Source: an uncultured Clostridia bacterium
GTDB taxonomy: Bacteria; Bacillota; Clostridia; UBA1381
Assembly (NCBI GenBank): GCA_947626075.1
Contig: CANQQW010000014.1
Coordinates: 1 to 36,258, forward strand
Length of the DNA: 36,258 nucleotides
Direction of reading: 5' to 3'
Notes under the pieces: model-generated
Told to the model about the DNA's origin: nothing
The model's database searches: none
The model's input: the letters and a program-made list of their open reading frames with translations, nothing else
Made by a program: the position numbers and the translations under genes
Part shown: positions 12,599 to 21,172 of the stretch, one piece after another
Position numbering within the stretch: position 1 is the first letter of the stretch
How the letters are laid out: the number at the start of each line of letters is the position of its first letter

Positions 12599-14485
12599 AT
12601 GCGGGAAAACAGTACCATAAACGAAAATACGGATAACGGCGGCGTGAACGCGCAAAGCGAAGCGGCGGCTGAGGAAGTTACCGCGGACGCGCAGGTAAGC
12701 GAAAGCGATACGGTAAGCGAAGCGGACGAATATGACACGTCCGAAAAAGGTGCAGACGACGGTTTCTTCACGGGTGACGGTTCAGACGACGGCGACGACT
12801 TTACCGGCGAAAATTTTGATGACGGCGACGATTTTACAGGTGAAAACTCAGACGGCGGCGAGGATTTTACCGGCGGCGATTTCGATAGCGGCGCAAGCGA
12901 TATTGACGATGATGATTTCAGTAACGATACGCGCTTTGACGAGATATTTGACGAATACTCGGGTACGGATGAAAAGAAGCTGCGCAAGGAGGCGGCTAAA
13001 CGCCGCAGGCAGGAGAGTATACGCAATTTTTTAAGGAAAGCAAAAAAGCCGTTCTTTATAACTCTCGCGGCTCTTTTACTTATATTTATCGCGTTTTTCG
13101 TATACGCTCTGAACACTATCGCACCTGACAGAATTATGAAAAACGTCTATGTGGAGGAGCTTGACGTGGGCGGTATGACGTATGACGAGGCGGTCGCGGC
13201 TATAAGCACGGCTTATCTGTTTGACAATACGGAAATCAGCGTTGTAAACGGTGAAAACACGTTCACAATTAACGGCGCGGATATAGGTTTGAGCGCAATA
13301 CCCGAGCAGACAGCCGACAAGGCTATGAGCTACGGCAAAACCGGCAATTTTCTGCAAAACGGTTTTGACGCTATGAAGCTGATATTCCAAAGTCATGTTA
13401 TAGTCCCCGCTCCGCAGTTTGACACGGCGCTTTTGGACGCTAAGCTCGGCGAGTTCGCAAACACCGTGCTCGGCGAGCGCAAGCAGCATTATGTGGAGCT
13501 TGGCGACGACGGTATGGCAACTATATACTCGGGGCAGACAGGCTACGACGGCAATCCGGAGGCCGCGAGGGAAGCGGTGATAAACGCCGTATCGAACGAG
13601 CAGTTTACAAATATAAGCGTTTCATTTAACTCGGCTCCGCCCGATGATATGACGCTTGAAGCGTTTGACGCGCTCGTTTACAAAGACCCGGTGGACGCGC
13701 GGTATGAAATAAACGGTAACAATGTGAGCGTTATCCCCGGAGATACGGGCAGGTACATAAACAAAGAAGAAGCGGCTCCGCTGCTGCAAAACGTATACGA
13801 GGGCTGCGAGCCGGTAAAAATACCGTTTTATGTGTCACAGCCGGAGAAAACGTCCGCGCTTTTAAACGCAAAGCTGTTTGAAACAACGCTCGCCACCTAC
13901 TCCACCTCCTACGGCACATCCACCTCTAACAGATGCGCCAACATAGCGCGCGCGGCGAGTCTCATAAACGGCACTGTGGTAGCTCCCGGCGGCGTGTTCT
14001 CGTTTAACGATACCGTTGGCAGACGTACCGCGGCGAACGGCTTCTACACGGCTACGGAGTATGTGGACGGCAAGAGCGTCGAGGGTATCGGCGGCGGCGT
14101 GTGCCAGGTTTCGAGTACGCTCTACAGCGCGGTGCTCTGCGCCGATATGTCTATTGTCGAGCGTCTTAACCACATGATGACCGTGGGATATGTACCGCTC
14201 GGTCAGGACGCAACAGTCTCCGACGGCAGCGTGGATTTCAAATTTAAAAACAGCAGCGATTACCCGGTAAAAATATCCGCGCGCACGAGCGGGGCGACAA
14301 TTACCGTAAGTATCATAGGCGGCGCATGGGAACCGCCGCGAGACGTTAAAATAGTGAATAATACCTCTACGGTCGGAGAAAATACCGTTGTACACTCGAC
14401 GCGATACGTTTATTCAAACGGCGAGCTTGTATCCACCGATACGCTCAATACAAGCACGTATATGCCGCATAAGAACCAGGAATAA
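12599..14485 (+). CDS. VanW family membrane-anchored protein with acidic repeats
   Basis: A 628-residue protein. Residues 1-148 are very acidic and cytoplasmic by the usual charge rule, including four 11-residue repeats (about 53-96) centred on DDFTGEN, and a basic KRRRQE stretch. A membrane helix is at about 152-171. Outside it are regions resembling the putative peptidoglycan-binding domain found in YoaR-like proteins. Then comes the VanW domain with TSNRCANIARAASLINGTVV, GGVFSFNDTVGRR and GIGGGVCQVSSTLY. VanW domains occur in vancomycin clusters but are much more often, as here, in ordinary wall-associated proteins of Clostridia. No van genes are near, so resistance should not be inferred. 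AGAGGAAGGG precedes the ATG by about 8 bases. Confidence 0.88.
   Translation: MRENSTINENTDNGGVNAQSEAAAEEVTADAQVSESDTVSEADEYDTSEKGADDGFFTGDGSDDGDDFTGENFDDGDDFTGENSDGGEDFTGGDFDSGASDIDDDDFSNDTRFDEIFDEYSGTDEKKLRKEAAKRRRQESIRNFLRKAKKPFFITLAALLLIFIAFFVYALNTIAPDRIMKNVYVEELDVGGMTYDEAVAAISTAYLFDNTEISVVNGENTFTINGADIGLSAIPEQTADKAMSYGKTGNFLQNGFDAMKLIFQSHVIVPAPQFDTALLDAKLGEFANTVLGERKQHYVELGDDGMATIYSGQTGYDGNPEAAREAVINAVSNEQFTNISVSFNSAPPDDMTLEAFDALVYKDPVDARYEINGNNVSVIPGDTGRYINKEEAAPLLQNVYEGCEPVKIPFYVSQPEKTSALLNAKLFETTLATYSTSYGTSTSNRCANIARAASLINGTVVAPGGVFSFNDTVGRRTAANGFYTATEYVDGKSVEGIGGGVCQVSSTLYSAVLCADMSIVERLNHMMTVGYVPLGQDATVSDGSVDFKFKNSSDYPVKISARTSGATITVSIIGGAWEPPRDVKIVNNTSTVGENTVVHSTRYVYSNGELVSTDTLNTSTYMPHKNQE
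12755..12886 (+). repeat. four tandem 33-bp coding repeats in the VanW gene
   Basis: The Phe-Thr-Gly core recurs every 11 residues (Phe57, 68, 79, 90), and the DNA repeats every 33 bases with substitutions. The repeats encode an Asp/Glu/Gly-rich segment before the membrane helix. Confidence 0.75.
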
Positions 14486-14515
14486 AAATTAATTTGTAAA
14501 TTTCTAAATTACCCC

Positions 14516-14544
14516 TTGCAAACATTTTGAAAGTGTGGTATATT
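14516..14544 (+). promoter_or_regulatory. sigma-A type promoter of gatCAB-aspS
   Basis: TTGCAA (14516-14521), 17-base spacer and TATATT (14539-14544). The expected start of transcription is near 14551, which is also the first base of the long hairpin that follows. Confidence 0.7.
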
Positions 14545-14550
14545 ATATAA

Positions 14551-14622
14551 AGGTATACAGCAAAGACGTTGTATGTCAGAATTTATTTTCTGCCATACCG
14601 CGTCTTTTTTCTGTTTATACCT
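14551..14622 (+). promoter_or_regulatory. 72-nt near-palindromic leader, possible attenuator
   Basis: AGGTATACAG (14551-14560) pairs with CTG-TT-TATACCT (14611-14622). AAAGACG (14562-14568) pairs with CGTCTTT (14601-14607). The inner arms GTATG-t-CAGAA and TTCTG-c-CATAC pair around a short loop. The CGTCTTTTTT end looks like an intrinsic terminator. It lies between the promoter and gatC, so it could end most transcripts early. It is too short for a T-box and none of the T-box landmarks is visible. It could alternatively be a small RNA or merely the end of the vanW transcript. Confidence 0.55.
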
Positions 14623-14652
14623 TAAAATTTATCGAAACGGAGATAAACGGCT

Positions 14653-14931
14653 ATGTTTAATTCAGAACTGACAAAGCATCTTGCGGAGCTTTCCAAGCTT
14701 GAGTTTACGGACGAGGAGCTTGACAAGATGACGGAGGACATGACAGATATTATCGCCATTATGGATAAGGTCTGCGGCTTTGACGTGTCAAAGCCCGCGT
14801 ATGCTCTCGACGCGGTAGATTACAACGATTTGCGTCCCGACGCGCACGCGGATTCCTATCCCACGGATAAAATTACCGCTAACGCGAAGAATGTTAAAAA
14901 TAACAGCTTCGTCGTGCCTAAGGTAGTGTAA
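14653..14931 (+). CDS. gatC: Asp/Glu-tRNA amidotransferase subunit C
   Basis: A 92-residue small subunit of GatCAB. It wraps between GatA and GatB and stabilises them. The N-terminal half LAELSKLEFTDEELDKMTEDM and the later DLRPDAH (matching the common LREDE-type segment) are typical, and the length is normal. First of four closely spaced genes gatC-gatA-gatB-aspS; the gap to gatA is 29 bases. Confidence 0.92.
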   Translation: MFNSELTKHLAELSKLEFTDEELDKMTEDMTDIIAIMDKVCGFDVSKPAYALDAVDYNDLRPDAHADSYPTDKITANAKNVKNNSFVVPKVV

Positions 14932-14960: not shown

Positions 14961-16397
14961 ATGGCTTTGAAAGAACTTCGGGATATGCTCGATAAAAAGG
15001 AAATAAGCGCGGTTGAGCTTACCGAGCAGTATCTTGATAAAATCGAAAAGGCGGATAAGAGTATAAACAGCTACATTACCGTTTGCGCCGAAAGCGCTGT
15101 ATCCGACGCAAAAAGGGCGCAGGAGAAAATTGACGCGGGCAGTGCGGACGCTTTTACGGGTATTCCCATATCGGTAAAGGACAATATATGCACAATGAAC
15201 GTAAAGACTACCTGCGCGTCCAAAATGCTGGAGGATTTTGTGCCGCCGTATGACGCAACGGTTATGGAGAAATTAAAAAAATCAAATATAGTAATGCTCG
15301 GTAAGACGAACATGGACGAATTCGCAATGGGCGGCTCGTCTCAGACCTCGTACTTCGGCGGCGTTAAAAATCCGTATGACTTGTCGCGCGTAACGGGCGG
15401 CTCGTCGGGCGGCGCAGCGGCAAGCGTGGCGGCTGATTTATGCGCTGCGGCGCTCGGCTCCGATACGGGCGGTTCGGTGCGTCAGCCGGCGTCTTTCTGC
15501 GGCGTTACCGGTCTTAAGCCTACATACGGCGCAGTATCGAGGTGGGGGCTTATAGCGTTCGCTTCGTCGCTCGACCAGATAGGCGTAGTCGCGAAGTCGG
15601 CGGCGGACGCGGGGTATTTGCTTAACGGTATATACGGCAGCGACATAAACGACGCGACATCGAGCAAAAAAGCGGCGGGCGGTTACACATCGCTTGTCGG
15701 AAGCGATATAAGCGGTATAAAAGTCGGCGTACCCAAAGAGTTTTTTGGAGACGGACTTAACGATGAAGTTAAACAAGCGGTGCTCGGCGCGGCGGAGTAT
15801 TACAAAAAGCTTGGCTGTGAAATGATCGAGGTATCGTTGCCGTCACTCGAGTACGCGGTGTCGGCGTACTATCTTATTTCGTCGGCTGAAGCCGCGAGCA
15901 ATCTCTCGCGCTTCGACGGTATTAAGTACGGCTACCGCTCGGGTCTCGGCGAAGATTACAGCGATCTTATCAAAAATTCACGCCGTGAGGGCTTTGGCAA
16001 CGAGGTAAAGCGCCGGATAATGCTCGGCAACTACGCGCTCTGCTCCGGCTACTACGACGCGTACTACAAAAACGCGACGCGCATAAGGACGCAGATACGC
16101 AAGGAATACGCCGATATATTCGATAAGTGCGATGTTATTTTAACGCCTACAGCGCCGACGACGGCTTACAAAATAGGCGAACAGGAAAACGACCCCGTTA
16201 AAATGTATCTCGCGGATATATACACCGTAACGGTAAATATAGCGGGTCTGCCCGCGATTTCAACGACGTGCGGCTATGACAAAAACGGTATGCCGATAGG
16301 TATGAGCCTTATCGGACGCGCGTTTGACGAAAAGACTATAATTTCTGTATGTGACAGATTTGAGCGTGATTTTGACAGAAAGGAGGCGGCGCTATGA
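14961..16397 (+). CDS. gatA: Asp/Glu-tRNA amidotransferase subunit A
   Basis: A 478-residue glutaminase subunit of the amidase-signature family. It releases ammonia from glutamine for use by GatB. The Ser-cisSer-Lys triad is visible: Lys73 in SVKDN, Ser148 in GGSSGGAAAS and Ser172 in GSDTGGSVRQP. KTNMDEFAMGGS and the C-terminal GLPAIS are also typical. The gene ends in an ATGA overlap with gatB, so the two are translationally coupled. AAAGGAAC precedes the ATG. Confidence 0.96.
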   Translation: MALKELRDMLDKKEISAVELTEQYLDKIEKADKSINSYITVCAESAVSDAKRAQEKIDAGSADAFTGIPISVKDNICTMNVKTTCASKMLEDFVPPYDATVMEKLKKSNIVMLGKTNMDEFAMGGSSQTSYFGGVKNPYDLSRVTGGSSGGAAASVAADLCAAALGSDTGGSVRQPASFCGVTGLKPTYGAVSRWGLIAFASSLDQIGVVAKSAADAGYLLNGIYGSDINDATSSKKAAGGYTSLVGSDISGIKVGVPKEFFGDGLNDEVKQAVLGAAEYYKKLGCEMIEVSLPSLEYAVSAYYLISSAEAASNLSRFDGIKYGYRSGLGEDYSDLIKNSRREGFGNEVKRRIMLGNYALCSGYYDAYYKNATRIRTQIRKEYADIFDKCDVILTPTAPTTAYKIGEQENDPVKMYLADIYTVTVNIAGLPAISTTCGYDKNGMPIGMSLIGRAFDEKTIISVCDRFERDFDRKEAAL

Positions 16398-17812
16398 GAT
16401 ACCAGCCGGTAATCGGTCTTGAAATCCACGCGGAGCTTCTTACCGACTCAAAGGTGTTCTGTACATGTCAAAACGAGTTCGGCGGCAGCGAGAATACGCG
16501 CGTATGTCCGCGCTGCAGCGGTATGCCCGGTACTCTCCCCCTGCTTAACAGGGGCGCGGTGCGTCTCGCGGCAAAAGCGGGTTTCGCTACGGACTGTACC
16601 GTAAACAACTATTCCGCGTTCGACAGGAAAAATTATTTCTACCCCGATCTTCCCAAAGCGTACCAGATTACACAGTTTGAGCATCCGATATGCACGGACG
16701 GTCATATAACGGTCACGGGCGGTAAGGATATACGCATAAACCGTATACACATCGAGGAGGACGCGGGCAAGCTCGTGCATGACGATTACGAGGGCATTTC
16801 CATGGCGGATTACAACCGCTGCGGCGTACCTCTTATCGAAATAGTGACGGAGCCGGATTTTCGCTCCGTCGAGGAAGTGCAGGATTTTGTGGAGCAGATA
16901 GCGCTGCGTCTCAAGTACGCGGGCGTATGCGACGCGAGAATGGAGCAAGGCTCGATGCGCGTGGACGTAAATATATCCATAATGCCCGTAGGCTCGACGG
17001 AGTTCGGTACGCGCGCGGAGCTTAAGAATTTAAACTCGTTAAAGGCAATCGGACGAGCGATTGAGTACGAAATAAACCGTCAGGCGGAAATACTTGACGC
17101 GGGCGGCAAAGTGGTGCAGGAAACGCGCCGCTACAACGATAACCACGGCGACACGAAGGCGCTCCGTTCCAAGGAAGAGGCGCACGACTATCGTTACTTC
17201 CCCGAGCCTGATATTCCGCCCGTGCTTTTAAGCGACGCGGATATGGCTGAAATTAAAGCGTCCATGCCGGAAATGCCTCAAACGCGTTTCGCGCGTTATA
17301 CGAAAGAGTACGGTCTGCCGGAGGATGATTCAAGGCTCATAATTTCAAACAAGGAGTTTTCGGATTTCTACGACGAGTCGGTAAAGGTAAATTCGGACTA
17401 CAAGCAGATTTCAAATATTATGCTGGTGGAGCTTATGCGTCACCTTAACGAGTCTGAAAAGTCTGTAAGCGACCTACTTTTCTCGCCCGCCGACTTGGCG
17501 GAGCTTGTTAAAATGTCAACCGACGGAGTAGTATCGAAAAACGCGGCGAAAGACATTTTAAAAATCATGTTTGACAGCGGCGCAAAGCCGATGAGTATCG
17601 CGAAAGAAAACGGATTTATTATGGATAACGACGCGTCGGGACTGGATGATATTGTAAGCAATGTCCTTGCAGAAAACGCCGACAGCGTGGAAAGCTACAG
17701 AAACGGCAACGAAAAGGTTTTCGGCTTCCTTATGGGTCAGGTGGTACGCGCCGTCGGTAAAGGCGCCAATCCTAAGCTTATAAAGGATTTGCTTACCGAA
17801 AAATTAAAGTAA
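16394..17812 (+). CDS. gatB: Asp/Glu-tRNA amidotransferase subunit B
   Basis: A 472-residue subunit that activates the carboxylate of mischarged Asp-tRNA(Asn) or Glu-tRNA(Gln) with ATP and amidates it. Seen are the start VIGLEIHAELLT, the zinc-site cysteines in CTCQNEFGG and NTRVCPRCSGMPG, DRKNYFYPDLPKAYQITQ, RMEQGSMRVDVN and DYRYFPEPDIPP. The C-terminal helical and YqeY-like region completes it (about residues 290-472). It overlaps gatA by 4 bases and is followed 15 bases later by the AspRS gene. Confidence 0.96.
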   Translation: MRYQPVIGLEIHAELLTDSKVFCTCQNEFGGSENTRVCPRCSGMPGTLPLLNRGAVRLAAKAGFATDCTVNNYSAFDRKNYFYPDLPKAYQITQFEHPICTDGHITVTGGKDIRINRIHIEEDAGKLVHDDYEGISMADYNRCGVPLIEIVTEPDFRSVEEVQDFVEQIALRLKYAGVCDARMEQGSMRVDVNISIMPVGSTEFGTRAELKNLNSLKAIGRAIEYEINRQAEILDAGGKVVQETRRYNDNHGDTKALRSKEEAHDYRYFPEPDIPPVLLSDADMAEIKASMPEMPQTRFARYTKEYGLPEDDSRLIISNKEFSDFYDESVKVNSDYKQISNIMLVELMRHLNESEKSVSDLLFSPADLAELVKMSTDGVVSKNAAKDILKIMFDSGAKPMSIAKENGFIMDNDASGLDDIVSNVLAENADSVESYRNGNEKVFGFLMGQVVRAVGKGANPKLIKDLLTEKLK

Positions 17813-17827
17813 TCGGAGGAATTAATT

Positions 17828-19135
17828 ATGCGGAAAATAGACGGTTCACAGCTTATAAGCGAGCTTACCCTCGGCGATTTGAAAAAGGCGGAAGGCGCTT
17901 CTCTTTCTTTCTGCGCCTGCGTTCACAAGCTGAGAAATATGAGCGGATTTTCATTTGTAATTCTCCGCACCGCAAGATACGTGCTTCAGTCCGTTTACAC
18001 GAAGGACTGCGACGGCGACTTTGACGCGCTCACCGAGGGAGCTTATGTAAGCGTGACGGGTACGGTAAAGAAAGAAAACCGCGCAAATTACGGCTACGAG
18101 ATAATTCTTACGTCATTTGAAATTCTTTCAAAGCCCGCGGCGGAATATCCGCTGCACGTTTCGGCAAAAAAGCTGGGCTGCTCGATTGAAACAAGTATGG
18201 AGTACAGGAGCGTGGCGCTCCGTCACCCGGAGCAGCGGGCGGTATTTAAAATTGCCGAGGGCGTGGTATCGGGTTTCCGTGAGTTTATGCTTTCGGAAAA
18301 TTTTACAGAAATCCACACGCCGAAAATCGTCGCAGCGGGCGCGGAGGGCGGCGCGAATATATTTAAGCTCAAGTACTTCGACAAGGACGCGTATCTTGCG
18401 CAGAGTCCGCAATTCTACAAGCAGACATGCGTCGCGTTCTTTGACCGCGTGTTTGAAATCGCGCCCGTGTACAGGGCGGAAAAGCATAACTCGACGCGTC
18501 ACTTAAACGAGTATATCGGTCTTGACTTTGAAATGGCGTTTATAAACGATATGCACGACGTAATGGCTATGGAAACCGCCATGCTGAAACACGTTATGAG
18601 GTATCTTGCCGAAAACTACGCTCACGAGCTTGAAATGCTTGAAGCGACACTGCCGGTAATAGAAGATATACCCTCGGTCACATTCTTTGAGGCGCTTGAC
18701 ATTCTCGGTAAGTCGCATAACCAGTTTGACCTCGACCCAACGGACGAGGTAAGGCTGTGCGAGTGGGCAAAGGAAAATCACGGCAGTGAGTTTATATTCG
18801 TCGAGAAATTCCCGGGGCTTAAGCGTCCGTTCTACGCGATGGACTCGAAAGATGACCCGAAGCTTGCCGAAAGCTTTGATTTATTATTCCGCGGTCTTGA
18901 AATAACAACGGGCGGTCAAAGAATACACGATTATAACGAGCAGATAGCCAAGTTGAAGCGTTACAACGTCGAGCCGGAGGACTTGGGAGCTTACCTTGAT
19001 ATTCACCGTTACGGCATGCCTCCGCACGGCGGGCTAGGTATCGGTCTGGAGCGCATAGTAATGAAGCTTTTGGGTCTTTCCAATATCCGCGAGGCAAGTC
19101 TGTTTCCGAGAGATATACATCATCTCGATCCCTGA
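17828..19135 (+). CDS. aspS: archaeal-type aspartyl-tRNA synthetase, probably non-discriminating
   Basis: A 435-residue class IIb synthetase. It has the short archaeal/eukaryotic form: an N-terminal OB-fold anticodon domain (to about residue 100) and a catalytic core with no GAD insertion, which bacterial AspRS (about 590 residues) has. Motif 2 contains YRAEKHNSTRHLNEY; motif 3 is GLGIGLERIVMKLLGL; the EGGANIFKLKYF and LAQSPQFYKQ blocks are typical. His33, in the OB-fold, stands where discriminating archaeal enzymes have Trp, and Asn87 where they have Lys. Such changes are associated with charging of both tRNA(Asp) and tRNA(Asn). With gatCAB directly upstream, the expected job is to make Asp-tRNA(Asn) for amidation to Asn-tRNA(Asn). 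GGAGG precedes the ATG. Confidence 0.88.
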   Translation: MRKIDGSQLISELTLGDLKKAEGASLSFCACVHKLRNMSGFSFVILRTARYVLQSVYTKDCDGDFDALTEGAYVSVTGTVKKENRANYGYEIILTSFEILSKPAAEYPLHVSAKKLGCSIETSMEYRSVALRHPEQRAVFKIAEGVVSGFREFMLSENFTEIHTPKIVAAGAEGGANIFKLKYFDKDAYLAQSPQFYKQTCVAFFDRVFEIAPVYRAEKHNSTRHLNEYIGLDFEMAFINDMHDVMAMETAMLKHVMRYLAENYAHELEMLEATLPVIEDIPSVTFFEALDILGKSHNQFDLDPTDEVRLCEWAKENHGSEFIFVEKFPGLKRPFYAMDSKDDPKLAESFDLLFRGLEITTGGQRIHDYNEQIAKLKRYNVEPEDLGAYLDIHRYGMPPHGGLGIGLERIVMKLLGLSNIREASLFPRDIHHLDP

Positions 19136-19297: not shown

Positions 19298-19612
19298 TCA
19301 ATCGAGATGGAAAAGCAGGTCTAAATCCGTTGACACGGGGCTGTTATCGGGGTTGGTCTCCATGATGTCCGCCATAAAATCCCACCATTTACGGTTTATC
19401 GCGGTATCCGCGCCCTTTGCCCACAGTTCCTCGTCCTCAATCTCTATGTAGCCGAACAACGTCAGCGTTTCCTTGTCAAGGTAAATTGAGTAGTTTTTTC
19501 CGCCGTGCTCGTGAATCATATCTTTCATTTCCTGCCACAGCTCGTTATGGCGCTTCTCATACTCCTTTTCCTGTCCCGGGTACAGCTTCATTTTAAAACC
19601 TTTGTGTATCAT
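19298..19612 (-). CDS. rhaM: L-rhamnose mutarotase
   Basis: A 104-residue member of the RhaM (former DUF718/YiiL) family, which interconverts alpha and beta L-rhamnopyranose. Visible are MKLYPGQEKEYEKRHNELW (the His belongs to the active-site block), GGKNYSIYLDKETLTLFGY, the RKWWDFMADIMETNPDNSP block and the C-terminal FHLD. Length is exactly typical. GGAGG lies 8 bases before ATG 19612. No other rhamnose genes are near, so the gene stands alone and its sugar pathway is presumably encoded elsewhere. Confidence 0.9.
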   Translation of the reverse strand: MIHKGFKMKLYPGQEKEYEKRHNELWQEMKDMIHEHGGKNYSIYLDKETLTLFGYIEIEDEELWAKGADTAINRKWWDFMADIMETNPDNSPVSTDLDLLFHLD

Positions 19613-19801: not shown

Positions 19802-21172
19802 TTATCCCAGCTTTTTGTGCGCCTCAACCGCTATCGCACATTCAAGGCGTTTTTTTTGAAATTCACAAGCAAGCTCGTAGGGCTTATTTATATCCTTATT
19901 GAAATTATACGCGTTCGCGCTGCAGCCGCCGCTGCAGTAAAACTTTGAGAAGCAGTCCGCGCACTTAGGCTTAGTGTACACATTGGAGCGTTCAAAACGC
20001 TTCACAATATTTTCGTCAAGCGTGTTTTCCTTAACGTTGCCCATGATAAAGTCGGTATTCCCCACAAACTGATGGCATGGGTATATGTCTCCGTTAGGCG
20101 CTACCGCAAGGTATTCATGACCCGCGCCGCAGCCCGACAGGCGCTTTATCGCGCACGGACCTTGGTCAAGGTCTACCATAAAGTGGAAGAAATTAAAGCC
20201 CCTGCCTTCGCCAAAACGTTTCACGTATTCCTCCGCAAGCTTATCGTACTCGGCGCATACAATGTCAATATGTTCTTTTTTCAGCGCGTAATCCTCAGTT
20301 TCCGGCGCTACCACAGGTTCCACGCTCGTCTGCTTGAAGCCGAGATTCGCAAGATGTATAACGTCCTTTGCAAAGTCCGCGTTATACGCGGTAAATGTGC
20401 CGCGCACATAGTAATTATCCTGATTTCTGCTTTCGGCAAGTTTTTGGAACTTAGGCACTATCGCGTCGTATGAGCCGCTGCCGTCCACGCGGCAGCGCAC
20501 ACGGTCGTTTGTTTCCTTTCTGCCGTCAAGACTAAGCACAACATTCGACATATTTTCGTTTATGTACTTCATAATGTCGTCGTTCAAAAGTATGCCGTTT
20601 GTTGTTATGGTGAAGCGGAAATTCTTGTCATGCAGTTTTCCTTGTTCTTTCGCGTACTCCGTTATCTCCTTTACCGCTTCAAAATTCATAAGCGGTTCGC
20701 CGCCGAAATAGTCAATCTCTATATTATGCCGCGTCCCGCTGTTGTTTATAACGAAATCAATCGCCTTCTTGCCTATATCGGCGCTCATAAGACTTCTGCC
20801 GCCGTGAAATTCACCCGTATCGGCGAAACAGTACTTACAGCGCAGATTGCAGTCATGCGCCACATGAAGGCACAGCGCCTTAACCACAGACTGTTTGTTC
20901 CAGTTCTTGGCTATATCGGCGTAGCAGTCCTCCGTAAAAAGCTGACCGCTTTCCGCAAGCGCACATATTTCCGCGTAGCTTTCCTCTATGTCGTCATCGG
21001 CGTACTTCGCTCTAAGCGCCACCTTTATATTTTCGGGACACTTGTCCGCCGCCGTAAACGGCTCGTTTATATAGTCAAGCATATCAAACATAATATCGTC
21101 CACAACGTGTACCGCGCCCGAATATATGTCCATGACTATATTAAGCCCCAACTGTTTATACTTATGTATCAC
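19802..21172 (-). CDS. scfB: SCIFF radical SAM maturase (thioether-forming)
   Basis: A 456-residue radical SAM peptide maturase that crosslinks Cys side chains of the SCIFF precursor to nearby residues. The N-terminal part, starting MIHKYKQLGLNIVMDIYSG, is a peptide-recognition-like region. Next comes CNLRCKYCF (CxxxCxxC, 4Fe-4S/SAM site), FGGEPLMN and TITTNGILL. The C-terminal SPASM domain supplies further clusters: CAIKRLSGCGAG, GDIYPCHQF and CADCFSKFYCSGGCSANAYNF. The start is GTG 21172 behind GGGAG. The precursor gene scfA lies 111 bases upstream on the same strand, which makes the assignment very firm. Confidence 0.95.
   Translation of the reverse strand: MIHKYKQLGLNIVMDIYSGAVHVVDDIMFDMLDYINEPFTAADKCPENIKVALRAKYADDDIEESYAEICALAESGQLFTEDCYADIAKNWNKQSVVKALCLHVAHDCNLRCKYCFADTGEFHGGRSLMSADIGKKAIDFVINNSGTRHNIEIDYFGGEPLMNFEAVKEITEYAKEQGKLHDKNFRFTITTNGILLNDDIMKYINENMSNVVLSLDGRKETNDRVRCRVDGSGSYDAIVPKFQKLAESRNQDNYYVRGTFTAYNADFAKDVIHLANLGFKQTSVEPVVAPETEDYALKKEHIDIVCAEYDKLAEEYVKRFGEGRGFNFFHFMVDLDQGPCAIKRLSGCGAGHEYLAVAPNGDIYPCHQFVGNTDFIMGNVKENTLDENIVKRFERSNVYTKPKCADCFSKFYCSGGCSANAYNFNKDINKPYELACEFQKKRLECAIAVEAHKKLG

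Follow-up and report, generated by a model that had tools for sequence, protein, structure and literature searches.

A probable single-hexaloop ANTAR attenuator at the predicted start of gatCAB-aspS transcripts in a clostridial family

Introduction

The published signs of an RNA target of an ANTAR protein are A1/G4 hexaloops that overlap a terminator (PMC3369931, PMC8934654). According to the accessible parts of these reports, ANTAR antiterminators contain two such hexaloops, P1 and P2, which in eut leaders are separated by a linker of 5 to 12 nt, and two closing pairs, A-U and C-G, are conserved under the eut loop (PMC3369931). Antitermination in eut requires both hexaloops (PMC3369931, PMC8934654), and eutP loses induction when P1 is absent (PMC3369931). 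The ANTAR dimer is nevertheless described as binding one hexaloop at a time; the same report allows that single-hexaloop sites may exist, leaves open why two hexaloops are needed, and calls for work on single hexaloops (PMC8934654). In Clostridium saccharobutylicum, the ANTAR-family protein NitR, which is capable of antitermination, induces GS/GOGAT genes upon nitrogen limitation (PMC6316151), and similar control has been suggested for C. thermocellum (PMC4676874), again as far as the accessible text of these papers goes.

Here, we describe an element at positions 14516-14622 (+ strand) of a 36,258-nt stretch of DNA from an uncultured Clostridia bacterium (GCA_947626075.1, contig CANQQW010000014.1), hereafter called the window. 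The element resembles the ANTAR targets in its A1/G4 hexaloop and in the overlap of that hairpin with a terminator, and it differs from them in carrying what appears to be a single hexaloop, placed at the predicted start of the RNA. An earlier note on this DNA had described the region as a promoter followed by a 72-nt near-palindrome and had offered several readings of it, which we take up below where the relevant evidence is given.

Results

Two mutually exclusive structures behind a predicted promoter

The operon behind the element has the order gatC-gatA-gatB-aspS, with all four genes on the + strand. These are gatC (14653-14931; Pfam PF02686, TIGR00135), gatA (14961-16397; TIGR00132, 612.2 bits versus a cutoff of 481.1), gatB (16394-17812; PF02934 and PF02637), and aspS (17828-19135), which encodes a non-discriminating aspartate--tRNA(Asn) ligase (NF003483, 524.8 bits versus a cutoff of 353; TIGR00458, 386.5 versus 368.4). 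In tRNA-dependent asparagine formation, the amide donor is glutamine. Because the AspS is of the non-discriminating, tRNA(Asn)-charging type, gatCAB-aspS should make Asn-tRNA(Asn) with an amide taken from glutamine. Transamidation as the only route to asparagine was rejected, as asparagine synthetase is present in 16/16 genomes of the genus. A search for tRNA genes across the window retrieved none. Downstream of the operon, on the opposite strand, are two genes (19298-19612 and 19802-21172) that we take to encode an L-rhamnose-mutarotase-like protein and a radical-SAM/SPASM-like protein, respectively.

A sigma-70 type promoter is predicted at 14516-14544 (+), with a -35 hexamer TTGCAA (14516-14521), a 17-nt spacer, and an extended -10 hexamer TATATT (14539-14544) preceded by TG; transcription would start near 14551. 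The promoter scan found one site versus 1.3 expected from shuffles of the region, and the scan alone is no proof. Relatives possess a like arrangement at the matching place before the gatC element. Among the 37 gatC loci with the element, TG lies ahead of the -10 in 35, as judged by a script that gave TG extra score, and the promoters of two (L158 and L160) are poor.

The strand from 14551 to 14622 folds at -30.8 kcal/mol, compared to a shuffled mean of -8.65 (standard deviation [SD], 2.38; z = -9.3), and 0/200 shuffles fold as well. The promoter and the palindrome of the earlier note are thus both present in the window, and the promoter arrangement recurs in relatives, but inspection by eye shows clear outer arms of the palindrome (about 14551-14560 with 14611-14622) in no leader other than those of the window and L009, its nearest relative. 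What relatives conserve of the palindrome is the inner hairpin plus the T run. As read from the fold, the outer 3' arm (14611-14622, +) pairs with 14551-14560 only once the T run has been transcribed; such arms should act on read-through RNA, if at all.

Nested within the palindrome are two alternative structures. The first is a putative ANTAR-type antiterminator hairpin at 14552-14577 (+), assigned from the fold and from covariation over 32 distinct relatives. It comprises 10 bp (14552-14561 with 14568-14577) around the hexaloop AAAGAC at 14562-14567 (A1, A2, and G4) and folds at -7.3 kcal/mol, with 1/200 shuffles as good. The second, read from the fold of 14551-14622, is an intrinsic terminator at 14562-14610 (+), in which a lower stem (14562-14569 with 14600-14607) supports two upper stems (14571-14575/14594-14598 and 14577-14581/14588-14592) and is joined by a T run at 14605-14610; the span 14562-14607 folds at -21.2 kcal/mol. 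A separate terminator scan did not list 14562-14610, its sole match there being the hexaloop hairpin at 14552-14577. Pairing of 14552-14561 with 14568-14577 around the loop excludes the terminator lower stem (14562-14569/14600-14607), and the two structures are mutually exclusive. The small hairpin is complete before the terminator gets transcribed in the window, and the fold energies suggest that, with nothing to keep the hairpin in place, the terminator would beat it by about 14 kcal/mol. The statement in the earlier note that no antiterminator partner is obvious was therefore mistaken: the 5' arm of the palindrome is itself half of the antiterminator.

Conservation and covariation upstream of gatC

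We surveyed 70 genomes of the family to which the window's organism belongs. GatC was found in 49 of them, 47 of which were assessable; the gatC leaders of G025 and G027 are cut by contig ends and were left out. The element, behind a predicted promoter, was found upstream of gatC in 37/47 genomes, representing 12 genera. Conservation of the stem upstream of gatC in relatives, which the earlier note had named as the point to check, is therefore borne out. Ten genomes do not have the element before gatC (G004, G016, G017, G018, G019, G021, G026, G028, G039, and G044). The leader in G004 (L168/L043, G004:C394) instead has a different GC-rich hairpin, and the GatC protein of this genome is divergent.

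The first gatC leaders collected (n = 21; 19 relatives' loci, the window, and G001) all display ACARC-AANGRC-GYTGT or a close variant at the predicted RNA start. ACARC pairs with GYTGT around the six-base loop, while GRCGYTGT doubles as the 5' arm of the terminator. Across 32 distinct gatC-leader cores, 90.2% of the cells of the small hairpin are paired, and changes occur on both sides at 6/7 hairpin pairs, a count reached by 4/500 shuffles. The covariation score was 0.472, compared to 0.261 for shuffled cores (SD, 0.024; 0/500 as high) and 0.048 to 0.184 for slid partners. Loop bases A1, A2, and G4 are invariant in 32/32 distinct cores (loop consensus, AANGRN), with the qualification that genus cores were found by sequence motif and more distant ones by listing A1/G4 hexaloops, which favors pairing and loop constancy among the latter. 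In a control comparing hexaloop types over 46 gatC upstream regions of the family, A1/G4 was the commonest type at every stem length tried, exceeding the next type by 26 to 14 regions (at least 6 bp), 31 to 17 (5 bp), and 37 to 28 (4 bp). The pair closing the loop is C-G in 32/32 cores, and the next pair is GU in 12, GC in 11, AU in 7, and UA in 2. With each leader folded as far as its T run, loop base G4 is paired with the arm that immediately precedes the T run in 37/37 cases; thus, the hairpin and the terminator exclude each other throughout.

Beyond the family, none of 20 gatC leaders (15 from ANTAR-negative and 5 from ANTAR-positive genomes) has the element. Two 4-bp AANGR hexaloops were seen there, one at a ribosome site (L174) and one 166 nt upstream in other sequence (L184). 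As far as sampled, the gatC link appears to be a trait of this family. In three genomes of a single genus (L141, L145, and L146), a weak second hairpin, GTTT-ATTGCG-RRGT, follows the terminator about 60 to 70 nt past the hexaloop.

The element recurs before other nitrogen operons

The leader of the glnA-ANTAR operon has a promoter, then GAGC-AAAGGT-GTTT or similar, and then a terminator. Searching 16 genomes of the genus with a pattern for the element gave 80 matches, compared to 36 for a reversed-pattern control; thus, nearly half of the matches may be due to chance, but not the recurrent ones. The element occurs before glnA-ANTAR in 16/16 genus genomes, where the leaders were placed by distance to the ANTAR match (in G011, to a cut gene) and glnA itself was read in seven. 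The corresponding count for gatC is 13/16 by pattern and 15/16 with leader comparison added. Near-identical, element-bearing glnN leaders are present in 13/16 genus genomes, with the gene read in six and a Pfam GSIII assignment for one. A gltB leader with the element was found in G001, G003, and G010 (gene read; Pfam for G003) and, beyond the genus, in G030. Leaders that look alike occur in G000, on a contig that stops short of the gene, and in G006 and G007, with the gene unconfirmed in both. In G021, one of the genomes without the gatC element, a 7-bp hairpin with an AAAGAC hexaloop precedes an unrelated split, ferredoxin-domain glutamate synthase (L216, G021:C68).

At the level of the order, the pattern outnumbered its reversed control only in genomes with ANTAR, giving 303 matches versus 172 in 63 ANTAR-positive genomes and 58 versus 85 in 32 ANTAR-negative genomes; these counts ignore kinship, and the ANTAR-negative set includes incomplete genomes (G011 among them). 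Fifteen glnA leaders from the family were examined, five of which have a stem of at least 4 bp and four a 3-bp stem (by eye), with no such hexaloop in the remaining six. Of five ANTAR loci from elsewhere in the order, none showed the element. Among 20 ANTAR loci from beyond the order, 12 had a recognizable glnA-like frame, and 7 of these 12 glnA leaders show one AANGRN hexaloop hairpin (L219, L221, L222, L224, L225, L227, and L235); a script called the accompanying terminator in five of the seven, and it was seen by eye in the remaining two. No second A1/G4 hexaloop with a stem of at least 4 bp was found upstream in these seven leaders. An eighth glnA leader of this layout, with a different loop, may be L231. 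The single-hexaloop mode may therefore be a broader property of glnA-linked ANTAR regulators, with the gatC link particular to the present family.

The promoter-hexaloop-terminator layout was also seen, with a 4-bp stem, in two genomes from different genera (L210, G002:C32; L211, G017:C17), where it precedes a circularly permuted ATP-grasp gene, a possible further member of the regulon. A similar element with a 3-bp stem (L212, G005:C40) precedes a gene for a PucR-family regulator, followed by a gene resembling an ABC transporter.

A single ANTAR protein linked to glnA

An ANTAR domain is encoded in 15/16 genus genomes and 58/70 family genomes, never more than once per genome; genomes of the wider class contain up to three, and 14 control genomes contain none. 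The protein from G000 matches PF03861 with 54.6 bits versus a cutoff of 27.3. All but one of the 37 genomes bearing the gatC element have an ANTAR domain match; the exception is G011, whose ANTAR gene is present but truncated by a contig end. An ANTAR domain also occurs in 9/10 family genomes without the gatC element; thus, its presence does not predict that element inside the family. In the window's genome, glnA is immediately followed by the ANTAR gene, and at five other loci of the genus a glnA start occurs at the matching distance before the ANTAR gene. A 6S RNA (L089 8407-8598, - strand; Rfam RF00013, 68.9 bits) is encoded near the glnA-ANTAR cluster of the window's genome.

The ANTAR protein of this genome aligns with EutV across both the receiver and ANTAR parts (E = 3.4e-4), while Pfam finds the ANTAR domain only and gives no receiver match. 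Regulator residue positions were placed by the motif AY-x7-M. The phospho-acceptor Asp (EutV LVLMD) is replaced by Gly, Glu, or Ser in 28 aligned family sequences from 26 genomes; thus, the regulator likely responds to something other than phosphorylation, and a candidate partner is the glutamine synthetase encoded by the neighboring gene. EutV Tyr164 is described as stacking on G4 (PMC8934654); its equivalent is His in 40/40 family sequences (some genomes being counted twice) and, among 21 sequences from outside the family, His in 11, Tyr in 5, and Phe in 5. The position of EutV Met172 is also Met in the protein of the window's genome.

Discussion

Proposed mechanism and alternatives

We consider it probable that the element is a single-hexaloop, start-proximal ANTAR attenuator that places tRNA-dependent asparagine formation under NitR-like nitrogen control. 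The parts of this reading differ in strength. Judged from sequence comparison, it is near certain that the element is an attenuator and likely that the ANTAR protein is its reader; a single hexaloop in the gatC leader is likewise likely, given a start site that is predicted. Direct support exists for two alternative structures that are conserved, covary, and lie at a predicted promoter, as well as for an element common to four nitrogen operons and for the presence of an ANTAR gene. Several observations weigh against the reading: eut antitermination requires two hexaloops, only one of the two eut closing pairs is fixed here, His replaces the Tyr that stacks on G4 in EutV, some glnA leaders of the family show no such hexaloop, and ANTAR does not predict the gatC element within the family.

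For binding, antitermination, the sign of the response, the signal, the physiology, and the start site, we infer the following scheme. Without the regulator, the RNA would fold into the terminator, and RNA polymerase would leave after about 60 nt. When active, the glnA-linked ANTAR protein (NitR-like, one per genome) would grasp the loop of the first hairpin (ACARC-[AANGRC]-GYTGT). With the hairpin held, the lower 5' arm of the terminator would be unavailable, and RNA polymerase would continue into gatCAB-aspS. The elements ahead of glnN, gltB, and the glnA-ANTAR operon that encodes the protein itself would be read by it too; with one reader for all of these leaders, the glutamine-consuming formation of asparagine on tRNA would therefore be co-regulated with glutamine and glutamate synthesis.

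One alternative keeps the start-proximal attenuator and both of its structures but gives it a reader other than ANTAR, such as AspRS or GatCAB acting in autoregulation, a tRNA, or a small molecule. The products of the gatCAB-aspS operon do bind RNA, one closing pair of the stem differs from that of eut, some genomes of the family have ANTAR but not the gatC element, and the ligand of the gatC hairpin is one that we infer. A reader of this kind would, however, have to account for the same loop and layout before glnA-ANTAR, glnN, and gltB, none of which is a tRNA gene, and for a single ANTAR gene that is linked to glnA. We therefore regard a non-ANTAR reader as unlikely.

Two hexaloops are the known rule and the start sites used here are predictions, so that the gatC leader might be a canonical dual-hexaloop ANTAR target with transcription starting further upstream than predicted and a first hexaloop located there. 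The distances argue otherwise, as the predicted +1 lies 0 to 8 nt 5' of the hairpin in 34/37 loci (16, 10, and -1 nt in the other three), based on the TG-favoring promoter script. We sought P1 (an A1/G4 hexaloop with at least 3 bp at a fitting distance upstream) in the 37 gatC leaders and obtained candidates in only 5/37, which overlap the promoter; upstream A1/G4 candidates were also rarer than six other loop types. A conserved first hexaloop thus seems to be absent, and the predicted start would leave no room for one. A dual-hexaloop target appears distinctly unlikely.

The earlier note had also raised a stable small RNA. Under such a reading, the region would encode a short, stable RNA and the terminator that ends it, and gatC would be served by leaky, unregulated read-through. 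The terminator is strong and is indeed expected to yield an RNA of about 60 nt, so that a stable small RNA is possible as a by-product of termination. As a complete account it is very unlikely, since it leaves unexplained both a covarying hairpin incompatible with the terminator and the occurrence of the element before four nitrogen operons. Finally, the near-perfect 72-nt palindrome of the window could suggest the mobile palindromic element mentioned in the earlier note, or a recent duplication, but we give this a negligible probability because the 72-nt element is single in its genome at the DNA level (15 matches, the other 14 with E values of 0.058 or worse), occupies the same place before gatC in 12 genera, and has outer arms that, by eye, are not generally conserved.

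Several further candidates were rejected. A T-box was dropped: Rfam gave 0 matches over the whole window at the gathering threshold, and a search of 14480-14700 with E values up to 10 gave 21 matches, none of which is a T-box. Those 21 are mostly eukaryotic snoRNA and microRNA models, with a few from bacteria, and every one scores far under its gathering cutoff. Over nine relatives' loci, Rfam gave one match, a 6S RNA. A CsrA-like GGA loop does not fit, since GGA is not conserved (loops AAAGAC, AATGGC, and AACGGC). By eye, there is no anticodon-like loop that would suggest a tRNA mimic, and the ATG in the stem has neither a ribosome site nor a conserved frame that would suggest a leader peptide. 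A DNA operator palindrome was set aside because frequent G-U pairs in the covarying stem favor RNA. The suggestion in the earlier note of a non-T-box attenuator for an Asn-tRNA operon agrees with the presence of the element in 37/47 genomes, with the lack of an Rfam T-box match, and with an operon of gatCAB and a non-discriminating ligase.

A broader proposal, which we slightly favor, is that clostridial glutamine-linked (NitR-like) ANTAR regulators antiterminate with one hexaloop at targets that begin with the hairpin, nearness to the polymerase leaving the promoter replacing the recruiting first hairpin. One family would have extended this mode to gatCAB-aspS, making the formation of asparaginyl-tRNA depend on nitrogen status, and its regulators, without a phospho-acceptor, would take their state from a different partner, possibly the adjacent glutamine synthetase. 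The leaders described here provide a natural set of one-hexaloop terminators at four operons that could share one regulator, with the hairpin mostly at the very start of the RNA, and such a set offers a direct test of the purpose of the first hexaloop. They would also link nitrogen control to tRNA(Asn) charging, a connection that searches of the open-licence literature did not bring up. In the accessible parts of that literature (including PMC8164766 and PMC3369936), there is no apparent account of ANTAR control of gatCAB or aspS, nor of a natural start-proximal single-hexaloop antiterminator.

Comparison with known antitermination systems

Like T-box leaders, the gatC element presents a choice between terminator and antiterminator upstream of an aminoacylation operon, but it is far too short, lacks a specifier domain, and gives no Rfam T-box match. 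LicT, SacY, and BglG are antiterminators that act through a structured RNA held by the protein. The scheme proposed here is similar in that a protein-held RNA structure would exclude the terminator, and it differs in both the protein family and the RNA.

The resemblance to the dual-hexaloop ANTAR targets, as described in the accessible parts of the literature (eutP of Enterococcus faecalis with EutV, nasF with NasR, and amiE with AmiR; PMC3369931, PMC8934654), is closer. Common to both are the A1/G4 hexaloop, the overlap of its hairpin with the 5' arm of an intrinsic terminator, an ANTAR protein in the genome, and nitrogen genes downstream. In contrast to those targets, the gatC element appears to have one hexaloop rather than two, its hairpin begins within a few nucleotides of the predicted start, and it serves a tRNA-amidation operon. 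C-G alone is fixed under the loop, unlike in eut, and unlike regulators of the EutV type, the ANTAR proteins of the family are without the phospho-acceptor Asp, with no Pfam receiver match in the protein of the window's genome. There is also a likeness to NitR, which the available text presents as an antiterminator of the ANTAR type acting on genes for glutamine synthetase and glutamate synthase (PMC6316151, PMC4676874); the difference is that the targets here would include gatCAB-aspS.
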